This document shows, piece after piece, positions 20,734 to 46,612 of a stretch of 64,000 nucleotides of DNA. A program made the position numbers and the translations under genes. Source of the stretch: Verrucomicrobiia bacterium. Lineage in GTDB: Bacteria > Verrucomicrobiota > Verrucomicrobiia > Verrucomicrobiales > DEV007. Within the stretch, counting starts at the first letter, position 1; each line of letters begins with the position of its first letter. Location: contig JAUIAH010000021.1 of assembly GCA_030425385.1 (NCBI GenBank), positions 62,001-126,000 of the forward strand, in the 5' to 3' direction. The notes under the pieces were generated by a model that was given only the letters and a program-made list of their open reading frames with translations, searched no databases and had not been told where the DNA came from.

Positions 20734-21366
20734 CTACCCCTCAAAGTTTCTTTCGAAAAGTCCGACAAGGCTGGCTTTCAACGCTTTACGGGCACGGTAA
20801 AGCCGTGTCTCGACCGCCTTGACCGAGCATTTGAGCACCTCGGCGATCTCGGCTTGGGAGAGCCCTTGGAACTCGAATAGCAGAACGACCGTCCTGAGAT
20901 CGTGCGGCAGTTCCTGGATCGCATGGCGCACCTGTGCGGCTTCATCCGCACGGGCGCTCTCTGTATCCGGGCTGGCGCCGGTTGCCGGCAGAGACTCGAT
21001 CAGATCCACGCCGTCCTCGGTCACCTGGGAGACGCTCGGATGCCTCCGTTTCCAACGGACATGGTTCCTGCACAAGTTCGCCGCAATGCTGAACATCCAT
21101 GTAGAGAACTTGCCTTTGGGGCGGTAGCGCTTCCGGTTCTCGTAGATCCTGACAAAGGTCTCCTGAGCTAGCTCAACCGCATCGCTACGGTTGTTCGTGT
21201 AGCGCATGGAAAAGCCCACGAGTGGCTGCTCCCATCGCTCCATGAGCGCGTTCAGTGCGAGGTCGTCGCCCTCGCGCAGGCGCGTCATGAGTGTTTCGTC
21301 AGTGTCTCTAGCGTTGTTCGATTCGTTCGATAATGGTGGTCGAGTGACCATGAGTTCGCTCCACAA
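20734..21366 (-). CDS. ECF RNA polymerase sigma factor, CnrH-like (copy 1)
   Basis: This 210-residue protein is a sigma-70 family ECF factor. Region 2 runs through DAVELAQETFVRIYENRK and FSTWMFSIAANLCRNHVRWK. Region 4 includes IQELPHDLRTVVLLFEFQGL and a helix-turn-helix (SQAEIAEVLKCSVKAVETRL). It heads a gene row sigma, anti-sigma, sensor, CusC, CusB, glutaredoxin-MauE, lipoprotein, CusA, Cys-rich protein, so it probably activates this copper operon. The start could also be the in-frame ATG at 21351. The paralogue at 32956 is about half identical by eye. Confidence 0.88.
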   Translation of the reverse strand: MWSELMVTRPPLSNESNNARDTDETLMTRLREGDDLALNALMERWEQPLVGFSMRYTNNRSDAVELAQETFVRIYENRKRYRPKGKFSTWMFSIAANLCRNHVRWKRRHPSVSQVTEDGVDLIESLPATGASPDTESARADEAAQVRHAIQELPHDLRTVVLLFEFQGLSQAEIAEVLKCSVKAVETRLYRARKALKASLVGLFERNFEG

Positions 21367-30364: not shown

Positions 30365-30757
30365 CTAGGCGTTCGGAGCGCGCGTCGGGAGCGACGTGCT
30401 CACCAGACGGGTGTACAGATGCCCAACGGGCATCCCTGTGCAACACAAACTGCCGCTAGCCTGTTCGGCCTCGCAGATTACTCGTTCTACAGATGCTAGG
30501 AAATCGGTGAAGTGTAGTAGGGTCCAGTCGACTGAATCGACTACGAGCGGACTGATCGTAGGCACGCCGCCGATACCGAAGATGTCGCACACTCCACAGG
30601 GGGCGTCTTGTTCGCCACCATCAGAGTCCGGGCATCCGTCCGAACCAGCGCTCTGCACCGGGCACGTGCTACAGTCCGCCATTCCAGCTTGCTCTGCCGA
30701 GCAGTGGAGGTAGCACGCTGTCCACAGTAGGAGAATGATGGTGGTGAACCTCTTCAA
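30365..30757 (-). CDS. Cys-rich exported protein (copy 3)
   Basis: This 130-residue protein starts at a TTG (30757) overlapping the MerR stop by 4 bases (TTGA), a translational-coupling layout. It has a signal-like helix (ILLLWTACYLHCSAEQ), then ADCSTCPVQSAGSDGC and APCGVCDIFG, and later CCTGMPVG. The thiol spacing differs from the other two Cys-rich proteins, so common ancestry is uncertain. Coupling to MerR suggests metal-induced expression. Confidence 0.6.
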   Translation of the reverse strand: MKRFTTIILLLWTACYLHCSAEQAGMADCSTCPVQSAGSDGCPDSDGGEQDAPCGVCDIFGIGGVPTISPLVVDSVDWTLLHFTDFLASVERVICEAEQASGSLCCTGMPVGHLYTRLVSTSLPTRAPNA

Positions 30758-31176
30758 CGCTTTGAGGATAGCTTGGAACTCATTCTTGCCAAGATCTTAC
30801 AAGAATCCACTTTCCGCTCGCTCGCACAAGAGTCGGCCAGCGTTTCCAGTTCGCGCTTGAACGCGCGCATCTGGCGAATTTGCTTCTCTAGGTTGGCAAC
30901 CTTCTCGCGGGCGAAATCGCAGATGGCCGAGCAATCCGATGCTTCCTCATCCGAGGCCAAGTCGAGGAGGCGTTTGATCTCGTCTAGGGTGAAACCCATG
31001 CCCTGGGCGTTTTTGATAAACCGCACACGCTCAGCTGCTTGCTCATCAAACTTGCGGTAGCCCGCACCCGTCCGCTCGGCCTCACCGATCATACCGATGC
31101 GCTCGTAGTAGCGCACGGTATCTGCGCGGACTTCGGTTGCTTTAGCCAACTGGCTGACGGTGAGCAGGGTTTGCAT
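30754..31176 (-). CDS. MerR-family metal-responsive regulator
   Basis: This 140-residue protein has the MerR winged-helix start (LTVSQLAKATEVRADTVRYY, then ERIGMI) and a dimerisation coiled coil (about 80-115). Cys residues suitable for metal binding lie at CSAIC (about 83-87) and CASERKVDSC near 117-126. The layout is like ZntR/CadR/MerR types, but the exact metal cannot be read. A palindrome upstream (31198-31213) is a likely operator. It is coupled to the Cys-rich gene. Confidence 0.88.
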   Translation of the reverse strand: MQTLLTVSQLAKATEVRADTVRYYERIGMIGEAERTGAGYRKFDEQAAERVRFIKNAQGMGFTLDEIKRLLDLASDEEASDCSAICDFAREKVANLEKQIRQMRAFKRELETLADSCASERKVDSCKILARMSSKLSSKR

Positions 31177-31224: not shown

Positions 31225-31809
31225 TTATGAGCCGTATTTGCCGCTCTGCATCACCATTAGGAGATCACCTTCCAATCGCCGGAGATCTTGCATAACAGGC
31301 ACAAACGTATCTGCCGAGCGGTTGGATGACGCTGTGACCTGCTCCAGATCTCCGCGCAGCTTGACGAGATCGTCCAGAGCCTTGCCCAACGATCCATCTT
31401 TCGGATCGCCTTTTAGACGAGTCACTAGCAAATTTACCCCTTCGACTACGGTGCGGATCTCCGATACCCTGGAATCGAGACTGAGGGGAGAAAGCTGCCC
31501 TGAACCAATCTGGTAGAGGTGTTTAAAGATCTGCATCACCGGAGAAATGATCTTCGCATGCAGGATGATGCTGAGCGTCACGCAGACAGCCAGGCCGATA
31601 AGCATGGCGGGAAGGAGATGGTGTCCAGCAAACTCGCTTAGTGTCGGAGCCTCTCCGAGAAGATATTCAAATGCGGAGTAGATGAGCATCCCAACCAGCG
31701 TGGCCATAAGGCTCGCCGTAGCAAGGATGCGGATAATGCTGCTGCTAGGACGATCAGACCTGCCGTCTGACGAGGTTTCGGCTATCGTTTTATGGTTAGT
31801 ATTTGTCAT
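31225..31809 (-). CDS. Two-helix membrane protein with HAMP-like region (copy 1)
   Basis: From ATG 31809 (MTNTNHKTIAETSSDG) it has 194 residues. Two membrane helices (about 27-48 and 66-88) are separated by a short periplasmic loop with HHLLPAMLIGL. The cytoplasmic part begins IISPVMQIFKHLYQIGSGQL, resembling a HAMP linker. The homologue at 37610 has HHLFPALFIGL and the same GVNLLV motif, and lies next to a metal ATPase. This copy also follows the remains of an ATPase tail, so both gene pairs descend from one duplication. It may be a signalling or stabilising membrane protein. Confidence 0.6.
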   Translation of the reverse strand: MTNTNHKTIAETSSDGRSDRPSSSIIRILATASLMATLVGMLIYSAFEYLLGEAPTLSEFAGHHLLPAMLIGLAVCVTLSIILHAKIISPVMQIFKHLYQIGSGQLSPLSLDSRVSEIRTVVEGVNLLVTRLKGDPKDGSLGKALDDLVKLRGDLEQVTASSNRSADTFVPVMQDLRRLEGDLLMVMQSGKYGS

Positions 31810-31825: not shown

Positions 31826-31857
31826 GAGTGAAATGCCACCCACGTAGAAATCCCCCC
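31826..31857 (-). promoter_or_regulatory. Metal-region promoter motif, copy 1
   Basis: On the minus strand, GGGGGGATTTCT is followed by GGTGGCATTTCACTC at the same spacing (19 bases after the GGGGGGA core to the end of CATT) as at 32073 and 37564. It ends 16 bases before the start at 31809. The left block resembles a GGAAC/T-type ECF -35 element and the right block may be the -10. Confidence 0.6.
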
Positions 31858-31901
31858 AAGTTTCGACCGTGTTTGAGCCTTGCCTGCTCAGCCGCTCAAT
31901 C

Positions 31902-31990
31902 TTCCCGATAGGCCAAGAACCTCAAAAGTTGCCGACCACCAACAGAGTGGAGCCTTCGTGGAACAGAACGGCAATCCCCATCTTCAACCC
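31902..31990 (-). pseudogene. Remnant of P-type ATPase C-terminus
   Basis: A minus-strand frame contains GLKMGIAVLFHEGSTLLVVG, nearly identical to GLNMGIAVLFHEGSTLLVVV at the end of the ATPase at 35098-37533. After a frameshift near 31925 the DNA still matches codons for RLLAYGG. The rest of the ATPase is gone. The remnant lies before a membrane protein gene paralogous to the one that follows the intact ATPase, so a duplicated segment broke inside the ATPase gene. Confidence 0.75.
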
Positions 31991-32072
31991 GAGCCTTGGA
32001 GTTAGGTCATGGGTCAAGAGATTTTTCCGAAAGGCAGTTTTCGCCCCATAATGGGCGAATTGTGAATTCTTT

Positions 32073-32104
32073 GGGGGGAACTCGCGCTGGGCGGCATTTA
32101 ACAC
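32073..32104 (+). promoter_or_regulatory. Metal-region promoter motif, copy 2
   Basis: GGGGGGAACTC and GGCGGCATTTAAC, with the same spacing as at 31826 and 37564, lie 30 bases before the second anti-sigma/sensor/sigma operon. As ECF sigma factors usually activate their own operon, this is a candidate autoregulated promoter. Confidence 0.65.
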
Positions 32105-32133
32105 TACAAGCAGCTTAACGAGCACTGAGAACC

Positions 32134-32484
32134 ATGAAAAAGAATGAACCCAACGACCTTTTCGAAACGGCGCTGCATTCCCTGAAAGAGCGATCTGGTG
32201 AGGTCGACCTCTCTGGTTTTGAGCACCATGTTTGGTCTGAAATTGCCATTCGTGACGAGCGCGGCTCCTGGTTGCAGTGGCTCCAAGGCGGGCGTTTTCT
32301 CATGCCCGCACCTGCCACCGCGGCGGTGGCCATCGCCGCAATCGGCGCGGGCATCACCCTTGGATTCTCTCAAGCCGAATCCTACGGGAAACAAGCATCT
32401 CTCGACCTGGAGCAGCGCTACGTGGAATCCATTCATCCTGTGATGATGAGCGCCAACCACGTGAGTAATCATACAGAACACTAG
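32134..32484 (+). CDS. Membrane anti-sigma factor, CnrY-like (copy 2)
   Basis: This 116-residue protein parallels the one at 20352. It has a cytoplasmic part with GFEHHVWSEIAIR, one membrane helix (about 60-78, AATAAVAIAAIGAGITLGF-like) and a periplasmic tail rich in His and Asn (MSANHVSNHTEH). It starts an operon with the sensor 8 bases later and then the sigma. The order anti-sigma, sensor, sigma is the CnrYXH order, whereas copy 1 puts the sigma first. Confidence 0.75.
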   Translation: MKKNEPNDLFETALHSLKERSGEVDLSGFEHHVWSEIAIRDERGSWLQWLQGGRFLMPAPATAAVAIAAIGAGITLGFSQAESYGKQASLDLEQRYVESIHPVMMSANHVSNHTEH

Positions 32485-32491
32485 CGAAACC

Positions 32492-32941
32492 ATGCGCAAT
32501 CTCGGCCTTACCGTATTACTCGCCGCGTTGTTGGGGGGCATCGCTTACACGGCGATCTTTTTCTGGCAGAAAAGCCGGATAGATGATCACCACGCACACT
32601 TAACGGCATTTGAGTGGTTTTGTGAAGAGTTCGCAGTCACTGGAGAGCAACGGGCACAGATAGAGGCCTTGCATAAAGAGTATTTCCCCGAGTGCGAAGA
32701 TCACTGCGTACACTACGCCGATACTCAACACACGCTGGCAAAGATCACGAACGATCCGCATCTCGACAATAGCCCCGAGCACAAAGAAGCCGCGAGAGAG
32801 CTCACGCAACTAGAGAAGGAGGCAGACAAGAAATTCATCGATTTCGTCTACAGAATCGCTGGCGAGATGGATACGGCACAGTCGCAGCGATACCTTCAAC
32901 GAATGAAAGGGTGGCTTGATCGAGCGGTCGTGGCCAATTGA
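32492..32941 (+). CDS. Periplasmic metal sensor, CnrX/ZraP-like (copy 2)
   Basis: This 149-residue protein has one membrane helix (about 5-24) and a helical domain with HKEYFPECEDHCVHYADTQ, giving the same Y-x-P-x-C-x3-C pattern as the first copy plus nearby His. The rest is helical. His/Cys residues suggest a divalent or soft metal. It lies between its anti-sigma and sigma genes with 7- and 14-base gaps. Confidence 0.75.
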   Translation: MRNLGLTVLLAALLGGIAYTAIFFWQKSRIDDHHAHLTAFEWFCEEFAVTGEQRAQIEALHKEYFPECEDHCVHYADTQHTLAKITNDPHLDNSPEHKEAARELTQLEKEADKKFIDFVYRIAGEMDTAQSQRYLQRMKGWLDRAVVAN

Positions 32942-32955
32942 TCCGTGAGTAGCCG

Positions 32956-33531
32956 ATGAGGGATCAGCAGCATGATGACGCGCACTGCATGGAGCGCCTC
33001 AGGCAGGGTGACGACCTTGCACTAAATGATCTGATGCGTCGATGGAAGGAGCCTCTGGTGACGTTTTGTTTGCGCTACACAGGCAATGTAACGGATGCGT
33101 GCGAGATTGCTCAAGAGACGTTTGTGAAAGTGCATGGAAGTCGGCATCGTTACCAACAGAGTGCTGCCTTTTCAACTTGGCTGTTCAGCATTGCGGCCAA
33201 CCTCTGTCGCATGCGCACGCGATGGCGCACGCGTCACCCCGAAGTGCTTGAGGCAGATCGCAATCAAGATACAGAACGCGTTCCTGATAGGATCGATTTG
33301 ACTGATCCAAGTGTCGAAAGCGACCGCAACACTCTTGCTGCGGATCTCGAAAGCGCCATCCAGAGCTTACCGCACGACCTCCGTGTAGCTTTCGTGCTCT
33401 TTGAGATTCAAGGGCAATCTTACCGCGACGTTAGCCAGATTCTCAAATGCACGGAGAAAGCGGTGGAACGCCGACTCGCAAAAGCCCGGGAACGACTGCG
33501 ATCAATGCTAGAATTCAAATGGCGGGGCTAG
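32956..33531 (+). CDS. ECF RNA polymerase sigma factor, CnrH-like (copy 2)
   Basis: This 191-residue ECF sigma has region 2 (ACEIAQETFVKVHGSRHRY, FSTWLFSIAANLCRMRTRW) and region 4 (SLPHDLRVAFVLFEIQGQS, then YRDVSQILKCTEKAVERRL). It shares long matches with the copy at 20734, including LREGDDLALN-like and PHDLR stretches. The antiporter and ATPase genes follow. It probably controls the GGGGGG...GGCATT promoters nearby. Confidence 0.88.
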   Translation: MRDQQHDDAHCMERLRQGDDLALNDLMRRWKEPLVTFCLRYTGNVTDACEIAQETFVKVHGSRHRYQQSAAFSTWLFSIAANLCRMRTRWRTRHPEVLEADRNQDTERVPDRIDLTDPSVESDRNTLAADLESAIQSLPHDLRVAFVLFEIQGQSYRDVSQILKCTEKAVERRLAKARERLRSMLEFKWRG

Positions 33532-35105
33532 TGATCCATACTGTTAGCAACTTTCAGAACAGTCTTTCCAGAACCGTGTCTCGTAAGCAGAAGGCCATCG
33601 TTTGGGCAATTATCGCGGTTGTCCTTTCTGTTGCCTGCACCGGAGCCTATGGCCAAGACGCCCCCGCCCAGGCTAGCAAGCTCGGGACTCCGGCGGCGGA
33701 AGTTCTGACGCACGACGCAACCGATCATCACGTGCCGTTTTCCCCGATCCTATTGGAGATAGCTATCATTATAGGTCTGGCAGTAGTGGGTCGTTGGTTG
33801 GCGACCTGTCTTCGCCAGTCGGAAGTGCTCGGTGAGCTTTTGATCGGCGTCATCGTTGGCAACATTGGTTACTGGTTTGGGATTCCGATTTTCGTTCTTG
33901 TCATGAATCTGGGAGATGCAATTCCGCTCTTCAGTGAGGTGTGGTTGACGGGGAAAGCCGTTAGCGAATCAGCTGAACACGTCTTTTCACCCGAGCAGCT
34001 CGAAGCTGGTGGGAGTGCAGAACACCTGTTAGCGATCATGACCGGTCTTGAGGGGCCTCGCCATGTGGCGATGGGTTTCGCACTTTGGATTTTCTCTGAA
34101 CTTGGAGTGATCCTTTTGTTGTTCATGGTTGGTCTCAAATGCGGGGTCGATGACATGCTTAGAGTCGGAACAAGAGCACTGGCGGTAGCCGCTGCGGGAG
34201 TGGTAATACCGTTCGTGGCAGGAATAGTCGTAGCAAAGCTACTTCTCCCCATGGCCGGGACACCAGTTCAGGTTTTCCTGGCCGCTGCTTTGACTGCTAC
34301 CAGCGTTGGAGTGACGGCGCGTGTCTTTCGTGACCTCAACAGGTTGCAAACAGCCGAGGCGAAGGTGATCCTTGGTGCGGCAGTTATTGACGACATTTTG
34401 GGCTTGGTGATTCTCGCAGCCGTCATCGACGTGGCTTCCACGGGCCAGATCGACCCGTTTGCGATCGGCCGGATCGCCCTGCTCTCTTGTACGTTTTTGG
34501 GTGTTCTATTAGTATTTGGGAACCGCTTAGTCCGACTCATAGTCCCACTCGTGAGTTTGCTTGAGAAGCACCATAGCAAACTGCTGTTTCCATTGGCACT
34601 TGCCTTTCTAATGGCCTGGGCTGCAAACTCAATTGAACTTGCACCGATCGTAGGTGCTTTTGCAGCCGGACTGATTCTAACTGAAGATCAGTTCGCCAAG
34701 CAGTCACCTAGTGTGACGATGGAAAACCTCATTGCTCCGCTAGAGCGCATCTTCGCCCCCATCTTCTTCGTCCTCATGGGAATGCAAGTGAACCTCCAGT
34801 CGTACCTTGAGCTCGACACCTTGTGGCTAACCGTGGCCTTCACAGTTGTCGCGATTCTAGGCAAAGTTTTGAGCGGTTTGCTGGCAGGGCGTGGAATTGA
34901 TCGTCTGACGGTGGGGATTGGAATGGTGCCTCGTGGTGAAGTCGGACTTATTTTCGCGAGCATCGGTAAGGCCATGGGAATCATCAGTGGATCCGTTTTT
35001 TCCGCTCTAGTTTCGATGGTCATTCTCACAACGCTCGTCACGCCCTTCGCTTTGAAGTGGTCGTTAGGCCGAGGCTCAAATCAACCACAGCAGCACAATG
35101 ACTGA
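33519..35105 (+). CDS. Cation/proton antiporter (CPA2, KefB-like)
   Basis: From ATG 33519, overlapping the sigma gene end, it has about 528 residues; GTG 33576 would give a shorter protein beginning just before a hydrophobic signal-like segment. There are about 12 membrane segments. Family features are QSEVLGELLIGVIVGNIGYW, ELGVILLLFMVGLKCG, AAVIDDILGLVILAAVID and VPRGEVGLIFASIGKAMG. The extended periplasmic loop near 95-140 is unusual. It should exchange a cation for H+. Its place between the sigma and the metal ATPase suggests metal or pH homeostasis under the same sigma. Confidence 0.85.
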   Translation: MAGLVIHTVSNFQNSLSRTVSRKQKAIVWAIIAVVLSVACTGAYGQDAPAQASKLGTPAAEVLTHDATDHHVPFSPILLEIAIIIGLAVVGRWLATCLRQSEVLGELLIGVIVGNIGYWFGIPIFVLVMNLGDAIPLFSEVWLTGKAVSESAEHVFSPEQLEAGGSAEHLLAIMTGLEGPRHVAMGFALWIFSELGVILLLFMVGLKCGVDDMLRVGTRALAVAAAGVVIPFVAGIVVAKLLLPMAGTPVQVFLAAALTATSVGVTARVFRDLNRLQTAEAKVILGAAVIDDILGLVILAAVIDVASTGQIDPFAIGRIALLSCTFLGVLLVFGNRLVRLIVPLVSLLEKHHSKLLFPLALAFLMAWAANSIELAPIVGAFAAGLILTEDQFAKQSPSVTMENLIAPLERIFAPIFFVLMGMQVNLQSYLELDTLWLTVAFTVVAILGKVLSGLLAGRGIDRLTVGIGMVPRGEVGLIFASIGKAMGIISGSVFSALVSMVILTTLVTPFALKWSLGRGSNQPQQHND

Positions 35106-37533
35106 AAAGACGAAAATTGAAATCCACCTGGTTTTGCCAGAACTAGCAGATGCGCGTGATGCGTGCGTACAGCGCCTCATTGAACTTCTCGAAGCGAAGG
35201 AAGGCATCAGTCGCGCGCATGTGATCGACACGGACAAGAGCGCTCTCGGACAACTTTGTATTCACTACGATCCAAAGTTGATGAGCATCAGTGTTCTGAG
35301 AGAATTCGCAACGCGTGCTGGCACGAGGCTTCAGGAGCGCTTTGGTCACTTGCTGCTCAAAACAGAGCCTATGCACGCCAGACGTGCGCGCTCAATCGCG
35401 AGCCTTGCGGAAAGAATTACCGGTGTGTTAGAAGCCGCGTGCTCACCCGATGGCGTGTTGCGAGTCGAGTTTGATCGAGAGAAGACCGATGAGGATACGC
35501 TGCATCACGCGCTGCACGCCGCGCACGTGCCGATCGTTGAAGCTGACACTCACGAAGGTCACGAGCACAAGCATGGAGGCATTTTCGGGGAGAAGACGGA
35601 ACTCGTTTTCGCAGGTGCTTGCGGAGTCCTGTTGTTGAGTGGAGTGCTTCTAGCGAAGTTCGGAACTCTTCCGCCCTGGGTCACACTAGCGCTCTACATA
35701 GCGGCCTACTTCTTTGGCGGTTGGTTCACCTTGCGTGAGGCGATTGATAATATCCGTCAGCGTCGATTCGAGATCGACTCACTGATGCTGGTCGCCGCCA
35801 TCGGCGCTGCGTCGCTTGGGGAGTGGGCGGAAGGTGCTCTCCTGTTGTTCCTTTTTAGCTTGGGGCATGCACTCGAACACTATGCTATGGGACGCGCGCG
35901 GCGTGCGATCGAGGCTCTGGCAGAACTCGCTCCAGACGTTGCTTTAATCCGGCGCGATGGGAAAATCGTGGAATTGGCGGTCGCGGAATTGCAGCGCGGC
36001 GATATCGCCATCGTGAAGCCGAACGAGCGTATTCCTGCCGATGGGTTTGTAGTGGAAGGCTCGGGCAGCGTCAATCAAGCGCCTATCACCGGAGAGAGTG
36101 TGCCGGTCGACAAAAGGCCAGCGGACGATCCGCAGGAGGCCGCAGCTCAGGGCGACAGTCTAGCTGCTGAACACCGTTTGTTTGCGGGTTCTATCAATCA
36201 AAGTCAGGCGCTGGAAATGCAGGTCACGAAGCTCTCTAGCGAAAGCACCCTGGCGAAGGTCGTCAAGATGGTCAGCGAAGCCGAAACCCGCAAGTCGCCC
36301 ACCCAGCAGTTCACCGACAGATTCGAGCGCATCTTCGTTCCCGTTGTGCTTGGTTTCGTTGGGCTTCTACTTTTCGCTTGGATCGTCGTCGATGAACCGT
36401 TCAGTGCTTCGTTTTATCGGGCGATGGCCGTCCTGGTGGCTGCCAGCCCTTGTGCGCTCGCCATTTCTACACCCAGCGCCGTCCTCAGCGGTATCGCCCG
36501 AGCAGCGCGTGGCGGCGTTCTGATAAAAGGGGGAGCCCCCTTGGAAAGCCTCGGAAGAATTTCTGCCATCGCGTTCGACAAGACGGGCACCCTGACGGAA
36601 GGCAAACCGCGTCTCACCGATGTCGTCCCCTGTGACGGTGTCGCCGAATCCGAGCTACTTGAAATCGCCGTGGTCGTTGAGAGATTCAGCGACCATCCTT
36701 TGGCTGCTGCCGTCGTCCGGGGTGGCGAGGAAAGGCTCGGTGGTTCACCGACTAGCGTAGCCACCAATACTCGGAGCATCACCGGTCGAGGTATCGAAGC
36801 AAGTTTAGATGGCGAGACGATCCACATCGGTAAGGACGATTTGTTTGCCGAAGTCGATGGGCCAGGGCTACCGGAAAAAGTGCGCCAGCAGGTTGAGTTG
36901 TTAGAGACGCAAGGTCGCACGACCATGGTTGTGCGCCGGGGAGAAAGGTACCTTGGTGTGCTCGGTCTGATGGACACCCCGCGCGAAGCTGCGAAACGCA
37001 TGATCGGCCAACTTCGCGCTCTTGGCGTACGCCGCATGATCATGATCTCGGGCGACAATCAGCAAGTTGCTGATGCCGTCGCTCGCGAAGTTGGTATTGA
37101 CGAAGCCAGAGGCGACTTGCTTCCAGATGATAAAGTCACTGCGATTAAGGAGATCCGCGCACAGGAGGATATTGCGATGGTCGGGGACGGCGTTAACGAC
37201 GCCCCTGCCATGGCAAATGCCACTGTAGGAATCGCGATGGGCGCAGCAGGCTCAGACGTGGCTCTCGAAACCGCCGATATCGCGCTCATGGCCGACGACT
37301 TGGCGCATCTGCCGTTTGCTGTGGGCTTGAGCAGGAAGACCAGTCAGATTATCAAACAGAACCTATGGTTCAGCCTTGGGATGGTCGCTTTGCTCGTCCC
37401 GGCTACCGTATTTGGTCTCAACATGGGGATTGCCGTATTATTTCATGAGGGATCAACCCTTTTAGTGGTCGTCAATGCACTCCGGCTCCTCGCCTACGGC
37501 GGGATCCAGAGCTCTGGGCAACAGCCGGTCTGA
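35098..37533 (+). CDS. Heavy-metal P-type ATPase (P1B-4-like)
   Basis: This 811-residue ATPase overlaps the antiporter gene by 8 bases. It has a phosphorylation site DKTGT (Asp near 494), the GDGVNDAPA hinge and a TM6 motif SPC (about residues 448-450) instead of CPC. TM8 has HEGST near 783. SPC plus HEG[S/G]T marks subgroup P1B-4, linked to Co, Zn, Cd or Fe. Two ferredoxin-like N-terminal domains have lost their Cys-x2-Cys; a His-rich HEGHEHKHGG (about 151-160) precedes TM1. It should pump metal out of the cytoplasm. Confidence 0.92.
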   Translation: MTEKTKIEIHLVLPELADARDACVQRLIELLEAKEGISRAHVIDTDKSALGQLCIHYDPKLMSISVLREFATRAGTRLQERFGHLLLKTEPMHARRARSIASLAERITGVLEAACSPDGVLRVEFDREKTDEDTLHHALHAAHVPIVEADTHEGHEHKHGGIFGEKTELVFAGACGVLLLSGVLLAKFGTLPPWVTLALYIAAYFFGGWFTLREAIDNIRQRRFEIDSLMLVAAIGAASLGEWAEGALLLFLFSLGHALEHYAMGRARRAIEALAELAPDVALIRRDGKIVELAVAELQRGDIAIVKPNERIPADGFVVEGSGSVNQAPITGESVPVDKRPADDPQEAAAQGDSLAAEHRLFAGSINQSQALEMQVTKLSSESTLAKVVKMVSEAETRKSPTQQFTDRFERIFVPVVLGFVGLLLFAWIVVDEPFSASFYRAMAVLVAASPCALAISTPSAVLSGIARAARGGVLIKGGAPLESLGRISAIAFDKTGTLTEGKPRLTDVVPCDGVAESELLEIAVVVERFSDHPLAAAVVRGGEERLGGSPTSVATNTRSITGRGIEASLDGETIHIGKDDLFAEVDGPGLPEKVRQQVELLETQGRTTMVVRRGERYLGVLGLMDTPREAAKRMIGQLRALGVRRMIMISGDNQQVADAVAREVGIDEARGDLLPDDKVTAIKEIRAQEDIAMVGDGVNDAPAMANATVGIAMGAAGSDVALETADIALMADDLAHLPFAVGLSRKTSQIIKQNLWFSLGMVALLVPATVFGLNMGIAVLFHEGSTLLVVVNALRLLAYGGIQSSGQQPV

Positions 37534-37563
37534 AAGGTCGATCGAAGAAAATTGTGAAAAAAC

Positions 37564-37595
37564 GGGGGGATCTGCGCTTCGGCGGCATTCAACTC
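37564..37595 (+). promoter_or_regulatory. Metal-region promoter motif, copy 3
   Basis: GGGGGGATCTG and GGCGGCATTCAAC at the spacing of the other two copies, 15 bases before the start of the two-helix membrane protein and its downstream RND operon. Confidence 0.65.
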
Positions 37596-37609: not shown

Positions 37610-38194
37610 ATGACTACCACTAACGCCCCGTCCATCTTACCAATGACTGCAACAACCACTGCCCCAGGCCCCTCCAAAACACTTGGCCGAACCGTTGTCG
37701 GCGCCACTTTGGTGGCGGTGTTCGTGGGGATGCTCGTCTACACGGGTTTTGAGTATCTTTTCGCGACGCCCACCGACCTGGCAGAATTTCTCACCCACCA
37801 CCTGTTTCCAGCCCTATTCATCGGCCTGGTTGTTTCGGTTACGCTGAGCGTGCTTCTTCACTCAAAGGTGATCGCGCCAGTGAAGAAGATATTCGAACAT
37901 CTCTATCACGTCGGATCGGGCCGACTGGCCCCACTCGAACTTGATTCTCGCATTGAAGAAATCGACACCGTTGTCGAAGGGGTTAATTTGTTAGTGCAGC
38001 GTCTCAAAGATAGTTCCGACAATCAAGCGATCGGAAAAGCGGCTGACGACGTCGTAAAGCTCCGCTCAGATTTAAAACGCGCCGTTAATGCGACTGCGAG
38101 TGGCGCAGATGAATTCATCCCCGTCATGCGCGACCTCCAACATTTGGAGCGCCATCTTCTCTCAGCAATAGAGGCAGCAAAGCAGAGCGCTTGA
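37610..38194 (+). CDS. Two-helix membrane protein with HAMP-like region (copy 2)
   Basis: From ATG 37610 (MTTTNAPSILPMTA) it has 194 residues, with helices at about 27-46 and 65-85, HHLFPALFIGLVV between them and a cytoplasmic helical part starting VIAPVKKIFEHLYHVGSGRL. It is a clear paralogue of 31225-31809. It heads the operon with TolC, adaptor and RND pump genes. Function unknown; HAMP-like helices suggest signal coupling to the membrane. Confidence 0.65.
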   Translation: MTTTNAPSILPMTATTTAPGPSKTLGRTVVGATLVAVFVGMLVYTGFEYLFATPTDLAEFLTHHLFPALFIGLVVSVTLSVLLHSKVIAPVKKIFEHLYHVGSGRLAPLELDSRIEEIDTVVEGVNLLVQRLKDSSDNQAIGKAADDVVKLRSDLKRAVNATASGADEFIPVMRDLQHLERHLLSAIEAAKQSA

Positions 38195-38201
38195 GTTTGC
38201 A

Positions 38202-39536
38202 GTGAACTTCGTTTCGATCTCGATGACTACCATACACAGGCGACTTACGCTCACCTATTTGCTGTTCTTGCTTCTCAGATTAACCGCAACGGGACAGGAC
38301 GAATCAATTCTAACTTTCAGTCGTGAGGCTGCAATTGAGAGTGCTGTTCGTAACAACCCTGAACTATCGGTCGCCGCGCTTGAGATCGAACGCGCGAAGT
38401 CAAGGCTTCGCTGGGCCGGACGTCTTGAGAATCCTGAACTCGAACTTTCAAGTTCAACGGATCAATTCGGGCTCAATGAAGACGAAGGGGAGATTGAGAT
38501 CGCGTTCAGCCAGCGATTCCCGGTCACTTCTCGGTTGCGAGACGAGAAGACGGCTAGAAAGCACGATGTCGAACTTGCGGAGATCGAGTTTGCCATAAGG
38601 CAGCGCCAACTTGCCTATGAGGTGGACAAGGCTGCTCTCATGCTTCTGGCGGCCGAACGAAAGGTACAACTTCAGAGCAAGTTAATCGAGCTTAACAGAG
38701 AGATCGTCACGTTTATGACAAGCAGGGTCAAGCTAGGGGAAATCTCTGCACTCGATGCTACCCAGGCTTCCCTCAACGGTCAGCTGCTTGATCAGGAGCT
38801 TGGAACGGCGCGGGCCGCAATTACGAGTGCGCGCTCACGGCTACAGCAACTGCTAGGGGTTGACCCCGATAGCTCCGTCAGTATTTCTGATTCGCTAGTG
38901 CTTTCGCAGGATCCTCCTGATTCTTCGATAGATTTAAACGCCGTCCTGCAGAACCGCCCCGACTATGCCTCATTGCTAACGTTAAGTGATCTTGGCAGGG
39001 CTCAGCTCGGCCTAGCCATGGCACAACGTTGGGATGATATTGCCGTAAAAATCTTCGTCACACGAGAACTGGCACAGGACGCCCCGGAAGGCCTCGAACG
39101 CAATACCTTCGCAGGGATCGGACTGTCGATCCCGCTTCCACTTCGTAACCGGAATGAGCAGGCCATCGAAGAAGCAAAGATCGAGATCGAGAAAGCACGA
39201 CGCGCTCGCGGGGCCAAGATGTTTGAAATCCACAGTGAACTTCGGGCGGCACTGAAGGCTCGTGAAGCAGCTCATGAGCTTTCCTTAAGTGCTGGAGGAG
39301 AGGCTCTGGAACTGGCTAAAAAGAACTTTATTGATTTCAAGGCGGCGCAGCAGACTGGTCAAGCGAGTCTGCTTCAAGTGCAGCAGGCGCAGACTCAGCT
39401 GCTTCAGTTAGAGAATTCAGCGTTAGAGTTTCAGACGAACTATCACATCACTGAAACGGAAGTCCGATTTATCGCAGGCACGTATCCGCTCCCTCAACCG
39501 TCTGCATACACTAACGACAATTATAACAAGAAATAG
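38202..39536 (+). CDS. czcC: TolC-family outer-membrane efflux protein (CzcC-like)
   Basis: This 444-residue protein (GTG 38202; ATG 38223 is an alternative that begins right at the signal peptide) has a signal sequence ending near LTATGQ. NPELSVAALEIERAKSRLRW and RLENPELELSSS are typical of CzcC proteins. Two long helical repeats follow. It lies 7 bases after the membrane protein gene and 2 bases before the adaptor. Confidence 0.88.
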   Translation: MNFVSISMTTIHRRLTLTYLLFLLLRLTATGQDESILTFSREAAIESAVRNNPELSVAALEIERAKSRLRWAGRLENPELELSSSTDQFGLNEDEGEIEIAFSQRFPVTSRLRDEKTARKHDVELAEIEFAIRQRQLAYEVDKAALMLLAAERKVQLQSKLIELNREIVTFMTSRVKLGEISALDATQASLNGQLLDQELGTARAAITSARSRLQQLLGVDPDSSVSISDSLVLSQDPPDSSIDLNAVLQNRPDYASLLTLSDLGRAQLGLAMAQRWDDIAVKIFVTRELAQDAPEGLERNTFAGIGLSIPLPLRNRNEQAIEEAKIEIEKARRARGAKMFEIHSELRAALKAREAAHELSLSAGGEALELAKKNFIDFKAAQQTGQASLLQVQQAQTQLLQLENSALEFQTNYHITETEVRFIAGTYPLPQPSAYTNDNYNKK

Positions 39537-39538
39537 AA

Positions 39539-40681
39539 ATGATGCGAATGCTCTATGCTGGCTTGACTGCCATTAGCACTACCTTATGCCTGACGAGTGG
39601 TTTGGCGGAAGAAGCCATCGACCCAGGCCGGGCCGCCAACACCATCATCCTCGACGAGAATGGTGTAAAGAACCTGCGCATTGAGACGGTGGCCGTCGAA
39701 GAGCAGGACTTCGAATCGACGGTCTTTGCCATCGGTCGGCTCGAAGAAACGCCAAACAGCCGCTCGGTTCTCTCATCACGCATCTCTGGGCGAGCGATCA
39801 AAGTGAACGCCTTCCTCGGAGACCATGTGACCAAGGGCGACATTCTGGTCGAAGTAGAGAGCCGCCAACCTGGCAGCCCCCCTCCTGTCATTCCCCTCAA
39901 AGCTGCCGAGACCGGCCTCGTGATCCAATCACATGTGAAAGTCGGCCAGCCGATCGAGCCGGATGCGGAATTGTTAGACATATCGGATCGATCAGTGATG
40001 TGGGCCGTCGCCAAGATCCCAGAAAAAGAAGCAGCCGACGTGAAGATTGGCTCTCGCGCGCGCATCCGCATCCCCGCCATCGGGGGTGAGCCCATCGAAG
40101 CGACTATCATACGCTTCGGCATCGCCGCCGACAGACAAGCGGGTACCGTCGAAGGTATCTTCGAAATTCCGAACCCCGGAGGGGAACTCCAGCCCGGCAT
40201 GCGAGCTGAGTTCTCTATCATTGTGAGCAGTCGTGAAGACGTGATGGCCGTCCCGCGCACCGCTCTACAAGGAGACCCCTCTAAGCGGGTCGTGTTTGTG
40301 AAGGACTTCGATCTCCCCAATGCCTTCGTCAAAGCCCCCGTACAGGTCGGCGAACAGAACGATGGATTCATTGAGATCACTGCCGGCCTCTTCCCTGGTG
40401 ATGAAGTCGTCACGCAAGGCTCTTACTCCCTTGGATTCGCTGGCGGCGGAAGCGTATCGCTCAAAGAAGCGCTCGACGCTGCCCACGGCCACGAGCACAA
40501 CGAGGACGGCTCCGAGCTTACGCCAGCGCAGAAGGCGGCAAAGGAAGCTGAGAAGGCAGGGCCTGCTGGCCAAGGGGGCGGCGCGTCCAGCGGCATCCTC
40601 AAGATCTACGCACTTGTCATCACGCTGCTCTTTATCGTGGTCGCCCAACTCTACTGGAGAAATCGTAAAGCAACGAGCTAA
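39539..40681 (+). CDS. czcB: RND periplasmic adaptor (CzcB-like) with C-terminal membrane helix
   Basis: This 380-residue protein has a signal peptide (cleaved near SGLAEE), then barrel-sandwich parts (VKVNAFLGDHVTKGDILVEV-like, with SPPPVIPLKAAETG) and beta-barrel parts (ELQPGMRAEFSII, then AVPRTALQGDPSK). The alpha-hairpin between the lipoyl halves is almost absent. A His-containing linker (HGHEHNEDG, about 316-324) leads to a Lys/Ala-rich stretch and a membrane helix (about 355-373) ending in a basic tail. A C-terminal anchor is unusual for adaptors. Confidence 0.82.
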   Translation: MMRMLYAGLTAISTTLCLTSGLAEEAIDPGRAANTIILDENGVKNLRIETVAVEEQDFESTVFAIGRLEETPNSRSVLSSRISGRAIKVNAFLGDHVTKGDILVEVESRQPGSPPPVIPLKAAETGLVIQSHVKVGQPIEPDAELLDISDRSVMWAVAKIPEKEAADVKIGSRARIRIPAIGGEPIEATIIRFGIAADRQAGTVEGIFEIPNPGGELQPGMRAEFSIIVSSREDVMAVPRTALQGDPSKRVVFVKDFDLPNAFVKAPVQVGEQNDGFIEITAGLFPGDEVVTQGSYSLGFAGGGSVSLKEALDAAHGHEHNEDGSELTPAQKAAKEAEKAGPAGQGGGASSGILKIYALVITLLFIVVAQLYWRNRKATS

Positions 40682-40691
40682 CACTTAGACC

Positions 40692-43600
40692 ATGCTCAAC
40701 AAACTTATCAGACTCAGTTTGGCGCAGCGCGCCCTTGTGGTCGCTGTCTCACTCGTTCTACTCGTCCTCGGTATTAAGAAGACGCTAGAGCTTCCCGTCG
40801 ATGTCCTCCCAGACCTCACGAAGCCTACGGTCACCATCCTGACAGAAGCCTCAGGCTACGCCCCCGAGGAGGTCGAAACCCTAGTGACAATCCCCCTGGA
40901 AAACGCTCTGATGGGGGTGACTGGCGTCGAGCGTCTACGATCAACAAACGACATCTCACTTTCGCTAATCTTCGTCGAGTTTGAGTGGGGAACAGACATC
41001 TACCAAGCACGTCAATTCGTCCAAGAGCGTCTCACTGGTGCGGTCGAAGTATTGCCTGAAGGCGTTACGCCATACATGACGCCCGTGGCTTCGCTCATGG
41101 GCGACATCATGATGGTCGGCGTGCGTGACCCTAGCGGAGAGACAAAACCACGCGACCTGCGCGTGCTGGCAGATTGGGTGATCGGTCGCCGCTTCCAGTC
41201 GGTTCCGGGCATTGCCGAGGTGCTCTCGATGGGCGGTGGGGTGAAGCAGATCCAAGTGCAACCAGATCCGAACAATATGTTCGCCATGGGCGTAACGTTT
41301 GAGCAGCTTCGCGAGGCCGCGTCCAAGGCGGTCAGGAATACCACAGGCGGATTCCTCACAGAACAGGATCAGGAGATCATGGTGCGCAATCTCGCCATGA
41401 CGACCGACCTAGATGCCATCGGTGACACAGTGGTCGTCCACGAAAATGACCGCGCCATCCGCATCAAGGATGTGGCCACCGTAAGGTGGGACATCGAACC
41501 CATGCGCGGTGATGCTGGGATGGGCACCAAGCTCAATCCAGACGGAACCCACGTCGAAGGCGCCGTCACCGGCGACGAGGGCGTGATCATCAACATCCGA
41601 AAATCTCCTGGCTTCGACACCATTGCGCTCACCGATAAGCTCGAATCCATCATCGATGAGTTGAAGACGACACTTCCAGAAGGCGTGGAACTCGTCACGC
41701 TCTACCGACAACGCGATTTCATCGATCTCTCGATTGGCAACCTCGAAGAGGCCCTACGCGACGGTGCGATCATGGTCTCGATCGTCCTCTTCCTATTTCT
41801 GTTCAACTTTCGAGTCACCTTCATCACGCTCACGGCGATTCCACTATCTCTCGCGATCACAATATTGGTCTTCGATTTCCTCAATCTGAGCGTGAATTCC
41901 ATGACCCTTGGAGGGCTAGCCGTCGCCATTGGCATGGTGGTGGACGACGCCATCGTCGACGTGGAGAACGTGTTCCGGCGCTTGCGGGAAAACGCCGCCC
42001 GGGAGACGCCCGAGTCGAAGTTAGAGGTGATCGCGCTCGCGTCGAGCGAGGTGCGCTCCTCCATCCTATACGCAACGATCCTCATCATCCTCGTGTTCAT
42101 GCCGCTGCTCGCGTTGAGCGGCGTCGAAGGGCGATTGTTCACACCCATCGCCATCGCCACCATCGTCAGCATGGGTGCCTCTTTCGTCGTCTCTCTAACA
42201 GTCATCCCGGTACTCAGCTCCTACCTGCTCAACCCAAAGCCAGGAAAAGAACATGGGGACAGCTTCCTAGTTCGCTGGATCAAGGGTGCATTTCGCCTGA
42301 CATGGTTAAAGCTAGCACTCGCGCAACCGTTCCTCATCTTCGCCCTCACCGGGATTCTCCTCTTCATCAGTTACGAAGCCTACACGAAGATGGGCGGCAA
42401 TTTCCTCCCGCCGTTCCGCGAACCGACCGCGGTGGTCGCGATGACCACTGCCCCTGGAACCTCACTCAAGACCACCACAGAACTCTCGAAAACAGCCCAA
42501 GATCTTCTCCTCCAAATTCCTGGAGTTGAAACCGTTGGCTACCGTGTCGGTCGTGCCGAGCGCGGCGACCATGTTGTCCCCGTATCTACAGTGGAGTTCG
42601 ATGTCGAGTTCAATGAGGAAGGAGAAGCCAACAGGAAGGAAGTCTTAGAACAGGTCCGTAATACGATGCGATCCATCCCAGGCACCTTCAGCGCCCTCAG
42701 CGGCCCCTTGGCAGACCGGATTGGCCACATGCTGAGCGGAGTCTCCGCTAAGGTCGCCGTGAAAATCTATGGCCCAGATCTCAAGGAACTGCGTCGCCTC
42801 GGCGAAGAAGTCGCAGGCATCGCTCGTGCCATTCCAGGTCTCGAAGAGGCGCGAACGGAGCAGCAGGCTCCGATCCCCCAGCTCAGGATCGAAGTGGACC
42901 GCAAACGCGCCCTCGCCTACGGCGTCACACCGGGGGAACTCAACGATGATCTCGCCGCTCTCATGGGGGGCGAGGCCGTCGCCGAAGTCTACGAAGGGCA
43001 AAGAGTCTACGATCTAGTCGTCCGACTCCCGCTTGAATGGCGGGAGAATCCCCAGCGTTTGGAAAACATCTACATCGACACGGAGAGCGGCCAGCGTATC
43101 CCTTTAAGCTATGTGGCCGAGCTACGTCAGGCGACTGGCCCGAACACCATCTTGCGTGAAAACACGCTAAGGAGATTCGTCGTCTCAATTAACCCGACCA
43201 CCAGCGACCTCAACGCCGTCGTCGAACAGTTGCAGCAAGACGTGGCAGCGAAACTCAAGCTCCCTAAGGGATACTCGCTTTCGTTCGAAGGCGAGTACGA
43301 GGCCCAACAGAAAGCTACCCGGACGATCGCGATCACCTCTGCCATCATCCTCGTGGTCATCGTATTCCTCCTCTACAGCTACTTTCAAAGCTTCAGCTTC
43401 GTCCTGCTAGTCCTAACGAATATTCCAATCTCCCTCATCGGCGCCGTGCTCTACACACGTTTCACGCTCGACAACATTAGCATCGCAACGCTTGTCGGCT
43501 TCATCGCGATTACTGGAATCGCGGCGCGCAATAATATCATGATGATTTCGCACTATCTTCATCTCATGGCGCACGAGGGGGAGAAATTTACACGCAAGAT

Positions 43601-43856
43601 GGTGGAGAGAGGCACGCTAGAACGCCTAGTTCCTGTTCTCATGACAGCCATTTCAGCGGGCATCGCATTGATACCACTCATCCTTGCCGCCGACGAACCA
43701 GGTAAGGAGATCCTGAATCCGGTGGCCATCGTCATCATTGGCGGGCTCGTTAGCTCGACCTTGCTAGGCCTCGCAATCACTCCGGCCATCTTCTTTAGCT
43801 TCTGCCGCAAAGCTGCCGAGAAAGCGGTCGCTGCCGGGGCTCCAGCTTGCGGATAG
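40692..43856 (+). CDS. Heavy-metal RND efflux pump (CzcA/CusA family)
   Basis: This 1054-residue pump has the family start (NKLIRLSLAQRALVVAVSLV) and PVDVLPDLTKPTVTILTEAS. TM4 reads GGLAVAIGMVVDDAIVDVEN, closer to the branch with G-x-VVDDAIVDVEN than to the CzcA DFGLIIDG pattern. The region DRIGHMLSGVSAKVAVKIYG is also typical of that branch. Its metal is therefore uncertain; nickel, cobalt or zinc are possible. It follows the adaptor by 10 bases and precedes the His-rich binding protein. Confidence 0.92.
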   Translation: MLNKLIRLSLAQRALVVAVSLVLLVLGIKKTLELPVDVLPDLTKPTVTILTEASGYAPEEVETLVTIPLENALMGVTGVERLRSTNDISLSLIFVEFEWGTDIYQARQFVQERLTGAVEVLPEGVTPYMTPVASLMGDIMMVGVRDPSGETKPRDLRVLADWVIGRRFQSVPGIAEVLSMGGGVKQIQVQPDPNNMFAMGVTFEQLREAASKAVRNTTGGFLTEQDQEIMVRNLAMTTDLDAIGDTVVVHENDRAIRIKDVATVRWDIEPMRGDAGMGTKLNPDGTHVEGAVTGDEGVIINIRKSPGFDTIALTDKLESIIDELKTTLPEGVELVTLYRQRDFIDLSIGNLEEALRDGAIMVSIVLFLFLFNFRVTFITLTAIPLSLAITILVFDFLNLSVNSMTLGGLAVAIGMVVDDAIVDVENVFRRLRENAARETPESKLEVIALASSEVRSSILYATILIILVFMPLLALSGVEGRLFTPIAIATIVSMGASFVVSLTVIPVLSSYLLNPKPGKEHGDSFLVRWIKGAFRLTWLKLALAQPFLIFALTGILLFISYEAYTKMGGNFLPPFREPTAVVAMTTAPGTSLKTTTELSKTAQDLLLQIPGVETVGYRVGRAERGDHVVPVSTVEFDVEFNEEGEANRKEVLEQVRNTMRSIPGTFSALSGPLADRIGHMLSGVSAKVAVKIYGPDLKELRRLGEEVAGIARAIPGLEEARTEQQAPIPQLRIEVDRKRALAYGVTPGELNDDLAALMGGEAVAEVYEGQRVYDLVVRLPLEWRENPQRLENIYIDTESGQRIPLSYVAELRQATGPNTILRENTLRRFVVSINPTTSDLNAVVEQLQQDVAAKLKLPKGYSLSFEGEYEAQQKATRTIAITSAIILVVIVFLLYSYFQSFSFVLLVLTNIPISLIGAVLYTRFTLDNISIATLVGFIAITGIAARNNIMMISHYLHLMAHEGEKFTRKMVERGTLERLVPVLMTAISAGIALIPLILAADEPGKEILNPVAIVIIGGLVSSTLLGLAITPAIFFSFCRKAAEKAVAAGAPACG

Positions 43857-43917: not shown

Positions 43918-44430
43918 ATGAAACTAACCACCCGTATCCTAACGATCTTCTCCGTTGCGGCCTACGCCGTAATGCCAGTTCTAGCAGACGAAGATAAACA
44001 CGACGACCATGACGATCACGGCCACGAGAAAGTCGTTGCCGGGCCGAATGGCGGGCGCGTACTCACCGACGTCGAACCGCACCTCGAATTCCTCGTCAAC
44101 GAAGACCGCACGGTCACGATCACCGCGCTCGACGACCACAACAAGGCCGCCAAGATTGCCGGTCAGACGGTGAAGATGATTGCTGGTAAGCGCAGCAGCC
44201 CTACGAATCTCACCTTCTCAGTGAAAGACGGCAAACTCGTCTCCAGCGGGAAACTCCCAGCTGGCAACGACTTCCCCGTCGTCGTCCAAATCAAGCCTAA
44301 AAAAGGTGCAAAAACAGTGAACGCCAAGTTCAACCTAAACCTGAAAGACTGCCCGACCTGCAAGTATAAGGAGTACGCCTGCACTTGCGCCCACGGGGAC
44401 GACGATGACCACAAAGACCACGACCACTAA
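43918..44430 (+). CDS. Periplasmic His-rich metal-binding protein (family of three, copy 2)
   Basis: This 170-residue protein has a signal peptide (cleaved near PVLAD). A short His/Asp cluster, HDDHDDHGHE, is followed by AGPNGGRVLTDVEPHLEFLV and a C-terminal CPTCKYKEYACTCAHGDDDD with a final HKDHDH. It resembles the proteins at 24420 and 46034. It starts 61 bases after the RND pump gene and ends before a strong hairpin. Likely a periplasmic metal buffer or chaperone for the pump. Confidence 0.75.
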   Translation: MKLTTRILTIFSVAAYAVMPVLADEDKHDDHDDHGHEKVVAGPNGGRVLTDVEPHLEFLVNEDRTVTITALDDHNKAAKIAGQTVKMIAGKRSSPTNLTFSVKDGKLVSSGKLPAGNDFPVVVQIKPKKGAKTVNAKFNLNLKDCPTCKYKEYACTCAHGDDDDHKDHDH

Positions 44431-46033: not shown

Positions 46034-46612
46034 ATGAAACTAACCAAATTGCCACTAATCGCTATCGCTCTAGCGGGCACCTACTATCTCTCTTCCTGCG
46101 GCGGAGACCAGCACGACGACCACGATGGTCATGACTACGACGAGCATGCCGAACACTCCGAGGATGATGACCACGAGGGTCACGATCATGACGACCATGA
46201 AGGACACGATCACGATGACCATGAAGGACATGACCACAGCGACATCGTTGCAGGGCCGAACGGTGGCAGGGTCCTAACAAGCGTCGAACCCCATGCGGAA
46301 TTCTTCGTCACTGACGACCGCAAGGTGCAGATCGCGTTCGTCGACGATGACCTGAAACCTGTTGCGGCAGGCGACCAGAATGTCTCAGTGATTGCGGGAG
46401 ACCGCTCGAATCCGACCAGTCTCTCCTTTGCCAAGAGCGGCAATGTCCTCATCTCTGACAAGGTCCTTCCCGACGGCAACGACTTCCCGGTCATCGTCCA
46501 GATCAAGACGGACGCCTCTGCCGAGACGGTTCGCGAGAAGTTCAATCTGAATCTCGCCGACTGCCCGACCTGCGACTACAAGGAGTACGCCTGCACCTGC
46601 GCCCACGATTAG
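46034..46612 (+). CDS. His/Asp-rich metal-binding lipoprotein (family of three, copy 3)
   Basis: This 192-residue protein has a lipoprotein signal (YYLSSC, Cys22). Residues 26-70 are mostly His, Asp and Glu, including three tandem DDHEGHDH units. The core AGPNGGRVLTSVEPHAEFFV and the end CPTCDYKEYACTCAHD match the protein at 43918. It would buffer metal at the membrane surface. It lies after the TnpB-like gene and its non-coding tail. Confidence 0.75.
   Translation: MKLTKLPLIAIALAGTYYLSSCGGDQHDDHDGHDYDEHAEHSEDDDHEGHDHDDHEGHDHDDHEGHDHSDIVAGPNGGRVLTSVEPHAEFFVTDDRKVQIAFVDDDLKPVAAGDQNVSVIAGDRSNPTSLSFAKSGNVLISDKVLPDGNDFPVIVQIKTDASAETVREKFNLNLADCPTCDYKEYACTCAHD
46166..46237 (+). repeat. Three tandem 24-bp units encoding DDHEGHDH
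   Basis: Three consecutive in-frame 24-base units (46166-46189, 46190-46213, 46214-46237) encode DDHEGHDH. They differ mainly at third codon positions. The number of units may vary between strains, which would tune metal capacity. Confidence 0.85.

Follow-up and report, generated by a model that had tools for sequence, protein, structure and literature searches.

Three intergenic sites in the genome of a Verrucomicrobiia bacterium are, with a probability that we put at about 0.9, ECF promoters recognized by a sigma factor whose gene lies just downstream of one of them, an arrangement that would join autoregulation of the sigma factor to a metal-efflux output. All positions given here refer to the window, the whole 64,000-nucleotide stretch of contig JAUIAH010000021.1 that was analyzed. 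An initial annotation had advanced the promoter reading, autoregulation included, and support for it now comes from a conserved footprint in seven other genomes, co-occurrence of the sites with orthologues of this sigma factor, their fixed orientation near start codons, and a layout like that of the mapped promoters cnrYp and cnrCp. We infer direct recognition by this sigma factor, induction by metals, an anti-sigma role for Y, and a sensor role for X. The sites and the genes beside them are listed in Table 1.

Table 1. Predicted promoter sites and neighboring genes (window coordinates)
Feature	Position	Strand	Description
Site A	31826..31857	-	GGGGGGATTTCTACGTGGGTGGCATTTCACT; predicted promoter of memA; predicted start ~31824
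Site B	32073..32104	+	GGGGGGAACTCGCGCTGGGCGGCATTTAACAC; predicted promoter of Y-X-sigma operon (autoregulation); predicted start ~32106
Site C	37564..37595	+	GGGGGGATCTGCGCTTCGGCGGCATTCAACTC; predicted promoter of memB and RND operon; predicted start ~37597
memA	31225..31809	-	Two-helix membrane protein with HAMP-like region, no kinase
Y	32134..32484	+	Small protein, one apparent membrane helix; probable anti-sigma factor; first in operon
X	32492..32941	+	Probable periplasmic metal sensor, membrane-anchored, conserved His/Cys
ECF sigma factor	32956..33531	+	Sigma70_r2 and r4_2; proposed reader of the three sites
Na/H exchanger-family antiporter	33579..35105	+	PF00999; in sigma operon; start codon uncertain, open frame from 33447
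Heavy-metal P-type ATPase	35098..37533	+	TIGR01525 above cut-off; in sigma operon
memB	37610..38194	+	memA paralogue
Outer membrane factor	38202..39536	+	RND operon; PF02321 OEP
Membrane fusion protein	39539..40681	+	RND operon; PF16576 HlyD_D23
CusA/CzcA-family heavy-metal RND pump	40692..43856	+	TIGR00914 above cut-off

The pattern GGGGGGAWYT-N7-GGYGGCATTY occurs with 0 mismatches at 31831-31857 (-), 32073-32099 (+), and 37564-37590 (+), and a scan of the window returned no match elsewhere, even at three or fewer mismatches. Dinucleotide shuffles yielded 0.05 matches on average, and none of 100 shuffles reached three. These results bear out the initial description of three intergenic sites on these strands that share a G-run and GGYGGCATTY at equal spacing, and the gene context agrees with their placement ahead of the second sigma module, a two-helix membrane gene, and that gene's paralogue with its RND operon. 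Every site is oriented toward its downstream gene, with 21 to 36 bases between the end of GGCATT and the start codon of memA (31809), Y (32134), or memB (37610). Sites A and B are divergent, and site C lies 31 bases past the stop codon of the ATPase gene. A genome-wide motif scan, which the initial annotation had suggested, places all perfect matches in this region: the trimmed pattern GGGGGRWNT-N9-YGGCATTYNAC has exactly three in the 8,006,327-base genome, and they are sites A, B, and C. Allowing 2 mismatches adds 2 further genome matches; a reversed control pattern has 3 at two or fewer mismatches.

A profile that uses sequence only and was built from the sites of other species gave a concordant ranking. 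The three window sites were the genome's top three matches, with scores of 27.1, 19.4, and 19.0 bits, followed by 12.4 bits, in a search that scored the best 150 of 2290 first-look candidates. When the nearest relative (G011) was also withheld from the matrix, the three sites scored 33.4, 29.7, and 20.3, and the next position in the window scored 7.7. The same matrix reached a maximum of 21.5 on 8 Mb of random null sequence, against 20.3 for site C, which is therefore not significant genome-wide by the strict matrix alone; site C is carried by its position and by the exact-pattern count.

The sites track the sigma factor across genomes. Among 95 genomes searched, close orthologues of the sigma factor (59-90% identity) are present in 7 besides this one, two of these relatives being Verrucomicrobiota metagenome assemblies; because G034 and G049 are almost the same and are treated as a single genome, the independent genomes are fewer than this number. 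All seven share the same Y-X-sigma order with the motif upstream of Y, so that the motif stands upstream of the sigma factor's own operon in 8/8 genomes with a close orthologue, this one included. A second site is likewise present in all seven, ahead of the outer membrane factor gene or, where memB comes before that gene, ahead of memB, and in G042, G034, and G049 the membrane gene lies apart from the RND operon and each unit has a site of its own. The motif is retained in other genera. An alignment of 17 sites, from which the L067 set was omitted as a near-copy of L066, resolves the conserved columns into two blocks, TTnGGGGG[A/G][A/T]nT and YGGCATTYMACnC, between which lie nine bases of very low information; an AT-rich stretch precedes the first block.

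Across the 95 genomes, profile matches at E <0.02 are confined to the eight sigma-bearing genomes, plus one in G075; matches in the six training genomes arise by construction, and it is the lack of matches in other genomes that carries information. The profile found no credible site in any of these 95 genomes that is without a close sigma orthologue. The G075 match falls within a 351-codon open frame, and matches in G073 and G082 are also inside long open frames. Three exact matches on viral contigs, each spanned by a long open frame, were taken as chance. In a Verrucomicrobia assembly from Lake Pavin, a degenerate copy, CGGGGGACATCCCTTCGCGCCGGATTTGACCC, lies just upstream of a Y gene (L073:9149-9174, +), and the sigma factor there shows 54% identity across its first 90 residues; this site is possibly an intermediate in promoter specificity.

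Y, which is first in its operon in the seven relatives as well, has no Pfam match in a search up to E 10. X matches PF13801 (Metal_resist) weakly and under the cut-off; its invariant residues are H34, H36, H61, C68, D70, H71, C72, H74, and H97, and its predicted model (pLDDT 67, too weak for a firm fold claim) resembles Spy, CpxP, and CnrX weakly (Z 4-6). The paralogues memA and memB, 49% identical, resemble the TM2-HAMP portion of PmrB-type sensor kinases and have no kinase: the NCBIfam PmrB model covers residues 65-133 of memA and the Pfam HAMP match is weak, and the predicted structure of memB has a pLDDT of 53, too weak for a firm fold claim. These HAMP-like proteins may contribute feedback or sensing to the circuit. 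Every copy of the memA/memB type found in relatives also has a promoter site. The antiporter gene lies between those of the sigma factor and the ATPase; at the G011 locus no homologue of it was detected, and there the ATPase gene directly follows that of the sigma factor. Downstream (3') of the RND pump, 43918-44430 and 46034-46612 (both +) encode two related His/Asp-rich, probably exported proteins that end in a CPTCxYKEYACTCAH-like motif, and several relatives have homologues of them adjoining the RND operon.

The closest known parallel is the cnrYXH-cnrCBA nickel system, carried on plasmid pMOL28 of Cupriavidus metallidurans, with which this locus shares the Y-X-sigma order beside RND efflux genes and the placement of separate promoters ahead of Y and of the efflux genes. 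The cnrYp and cnrCp starts were mapped to positions 24 and 25 bases ahead of their genes, and both promoters are reported to be under CnrH control (PMC9045368). Each has GGGG 20 bases before CGTATA, which begins 11-13 bases before the start site; the Verrucomicrobiota sites have their G-run 19-20 bases before GGCATT, so that the G-run of the -35 element and, to within one base, the spacing to the -10 element are alike. The transcript starts predicted in Table 1 follow from analogy with this mapped layout. The -10 sequence differs, being GGCATTYMAC here and CGTATA in Cnr, and the regulon here, unlike that of Cnr, adds the P-type ATPase, the antiporter, and the HAMP-like membrane proteins.

The proteins were also compared with those of Cnr. 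The sigma factor shares 27% identity with CnrH. A profile built from its orthologues scores other ECFs at 102 bits and CnrH at 56 bits, with better matches to AlgU/SigH, SigW, and RpoE than to CnrH; the sigma factor's nearest solved relatives are of the RpoE/AlgU/SigW type. X has no BLAST similarity to CnrX, which scores 91.2 bits against PF13801, whereas X scores 22.5 bits (cut-off 29.2). Y is without the CnrY domain (PF17524), which CnrY itself matches. Because the sigma factor is this distant from CnrH and closer to AlgU/SigH, SigW, and RpoE, because Y does not have the CnrY domain, and because the -10 element differs, we do not file the system in the CnrH group: it would work like CnrYXH but, by sequence, is not a member of that group. 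A plasmid search with the sigma factor returned distant ECFs only, all <60% identical, the best at 30-35%. Canonical ECF promoters of the RpoE/AlgU/SigW type are of the GGAAC and CGTC type. The sites described here resemble them in two-block layout and in autoregulation, and depart from them in having five or six G in place of GGAAC and GGCATTYMAC in place of CGTC.

Other readings of the sites fare poorly against these data. They might be operators of a DNA-binding regulator rather than sigma promoters, and a MerR-family protein is encoded at 30754-31176, adjoining memA; in G011 a MerR-family gene adjoins Y. No MerR homologue was found, however, in the motif-bearing stretches L062-L067 (two of which are short contigs), neither block is an inverted or direct repeat of the other, and every site is turned the same way, toward a nearby start codon; we regard the operator reading as highly improbable. 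The sites might also be promoters for another ECF sigma factor, and the window does encode a homologue about half identical to the 32956 sigma factor, that of the first module (20734-21366), beside another metal-efflux operon. Yet relatives that have first-type Y-X-sigma modules only show no motif upstream of Y and no credible match in the genome, and the motif precedes the operon of the 32956 sigma factor or its orthologues in all eight genomes. Attribution to a different sigma factor is thus just as hard to credit, the co-occurrence going against this reading and the operator reading alike.

The least probable alternative, to which we give almost no weight, is that the sites are alike because the DNA around them was duplicated, and that they have no promoter function. 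The initial annotation had itself raised this as the result that would overturn its reading, and memA and memB are indeed paralogous at 49% identity. The comparison of the three window sites contradicts it: upstream flanks match at 14-23/59 positions and downstream flanks at 7-12/34, compared with 10-11/13 for the -10 block. Y, moreover, carries a site though it is no paralogue of memA or memB, and the motif persists in other genera. Duplicated flanking DNA is ruled out because the two blocks are conserved and the spacer and flanks are not.

Sister Y-X-sigma modules offer an observation of their own. A GGAAC-type ECF promoter was sought upstream of these modules and not found. They have a different shared element upstream of Y, GCAAGGGTTTGAG followed by GGTGTTA, at L039:623 and 2087 (+) and L040:2923 (-), and in L039 it recurs after the sigma factor gene. 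This element is perhaps the sister modules' own promoter code. As a general promoter of sister modules, GCAAGGGTTTGAG was convincing in G088 and G091 only.

We propose that the 32956 sigma factor reads all three sites as follows. TTnGGGGG[A/G][A/T]nT would serve as the -35 element and YGGCATTYMACnC as the -10 element. In the unstressed cell, Y, as a membrane anti-sigma factor, and X, as a periplasmic sensor, would keep the sigma factor at the membrane, and binding of metal by X would release it. Sigma-RNA polymerase at site B would then transcribe Y, X, the sigma factor, the antiporter, and the P-type ATPase, a positive autoregulation; at site C it would drive memB together with the RND efflux operon, and at site A, memA.

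The literature searched yielded no study of such a system in Verrucomicrobiota. For this phylum, the sites provide an ECF sigma factor with a promoter code that can be tested, and because the regulon looks small and complete, with three sites in 8 Mb, it is a candidate for a metal-inducible, orthogonal switch. The proposed circuit would also connect metal efflux with a membrane protein of the HAMP-only kind. More tentatively, and with doubt outweighing confidence, we suggest that Verrucomicrobiota hold a closed, three-promoter metal regulon in which a sigma factor outside the CnrH group has acquired or kept a CnrH-like G-run -35 element and spacing, uses a new -10 code, and includes among its outputs a HAMP-only membrane protein, which may be a new feedback or sensing part.
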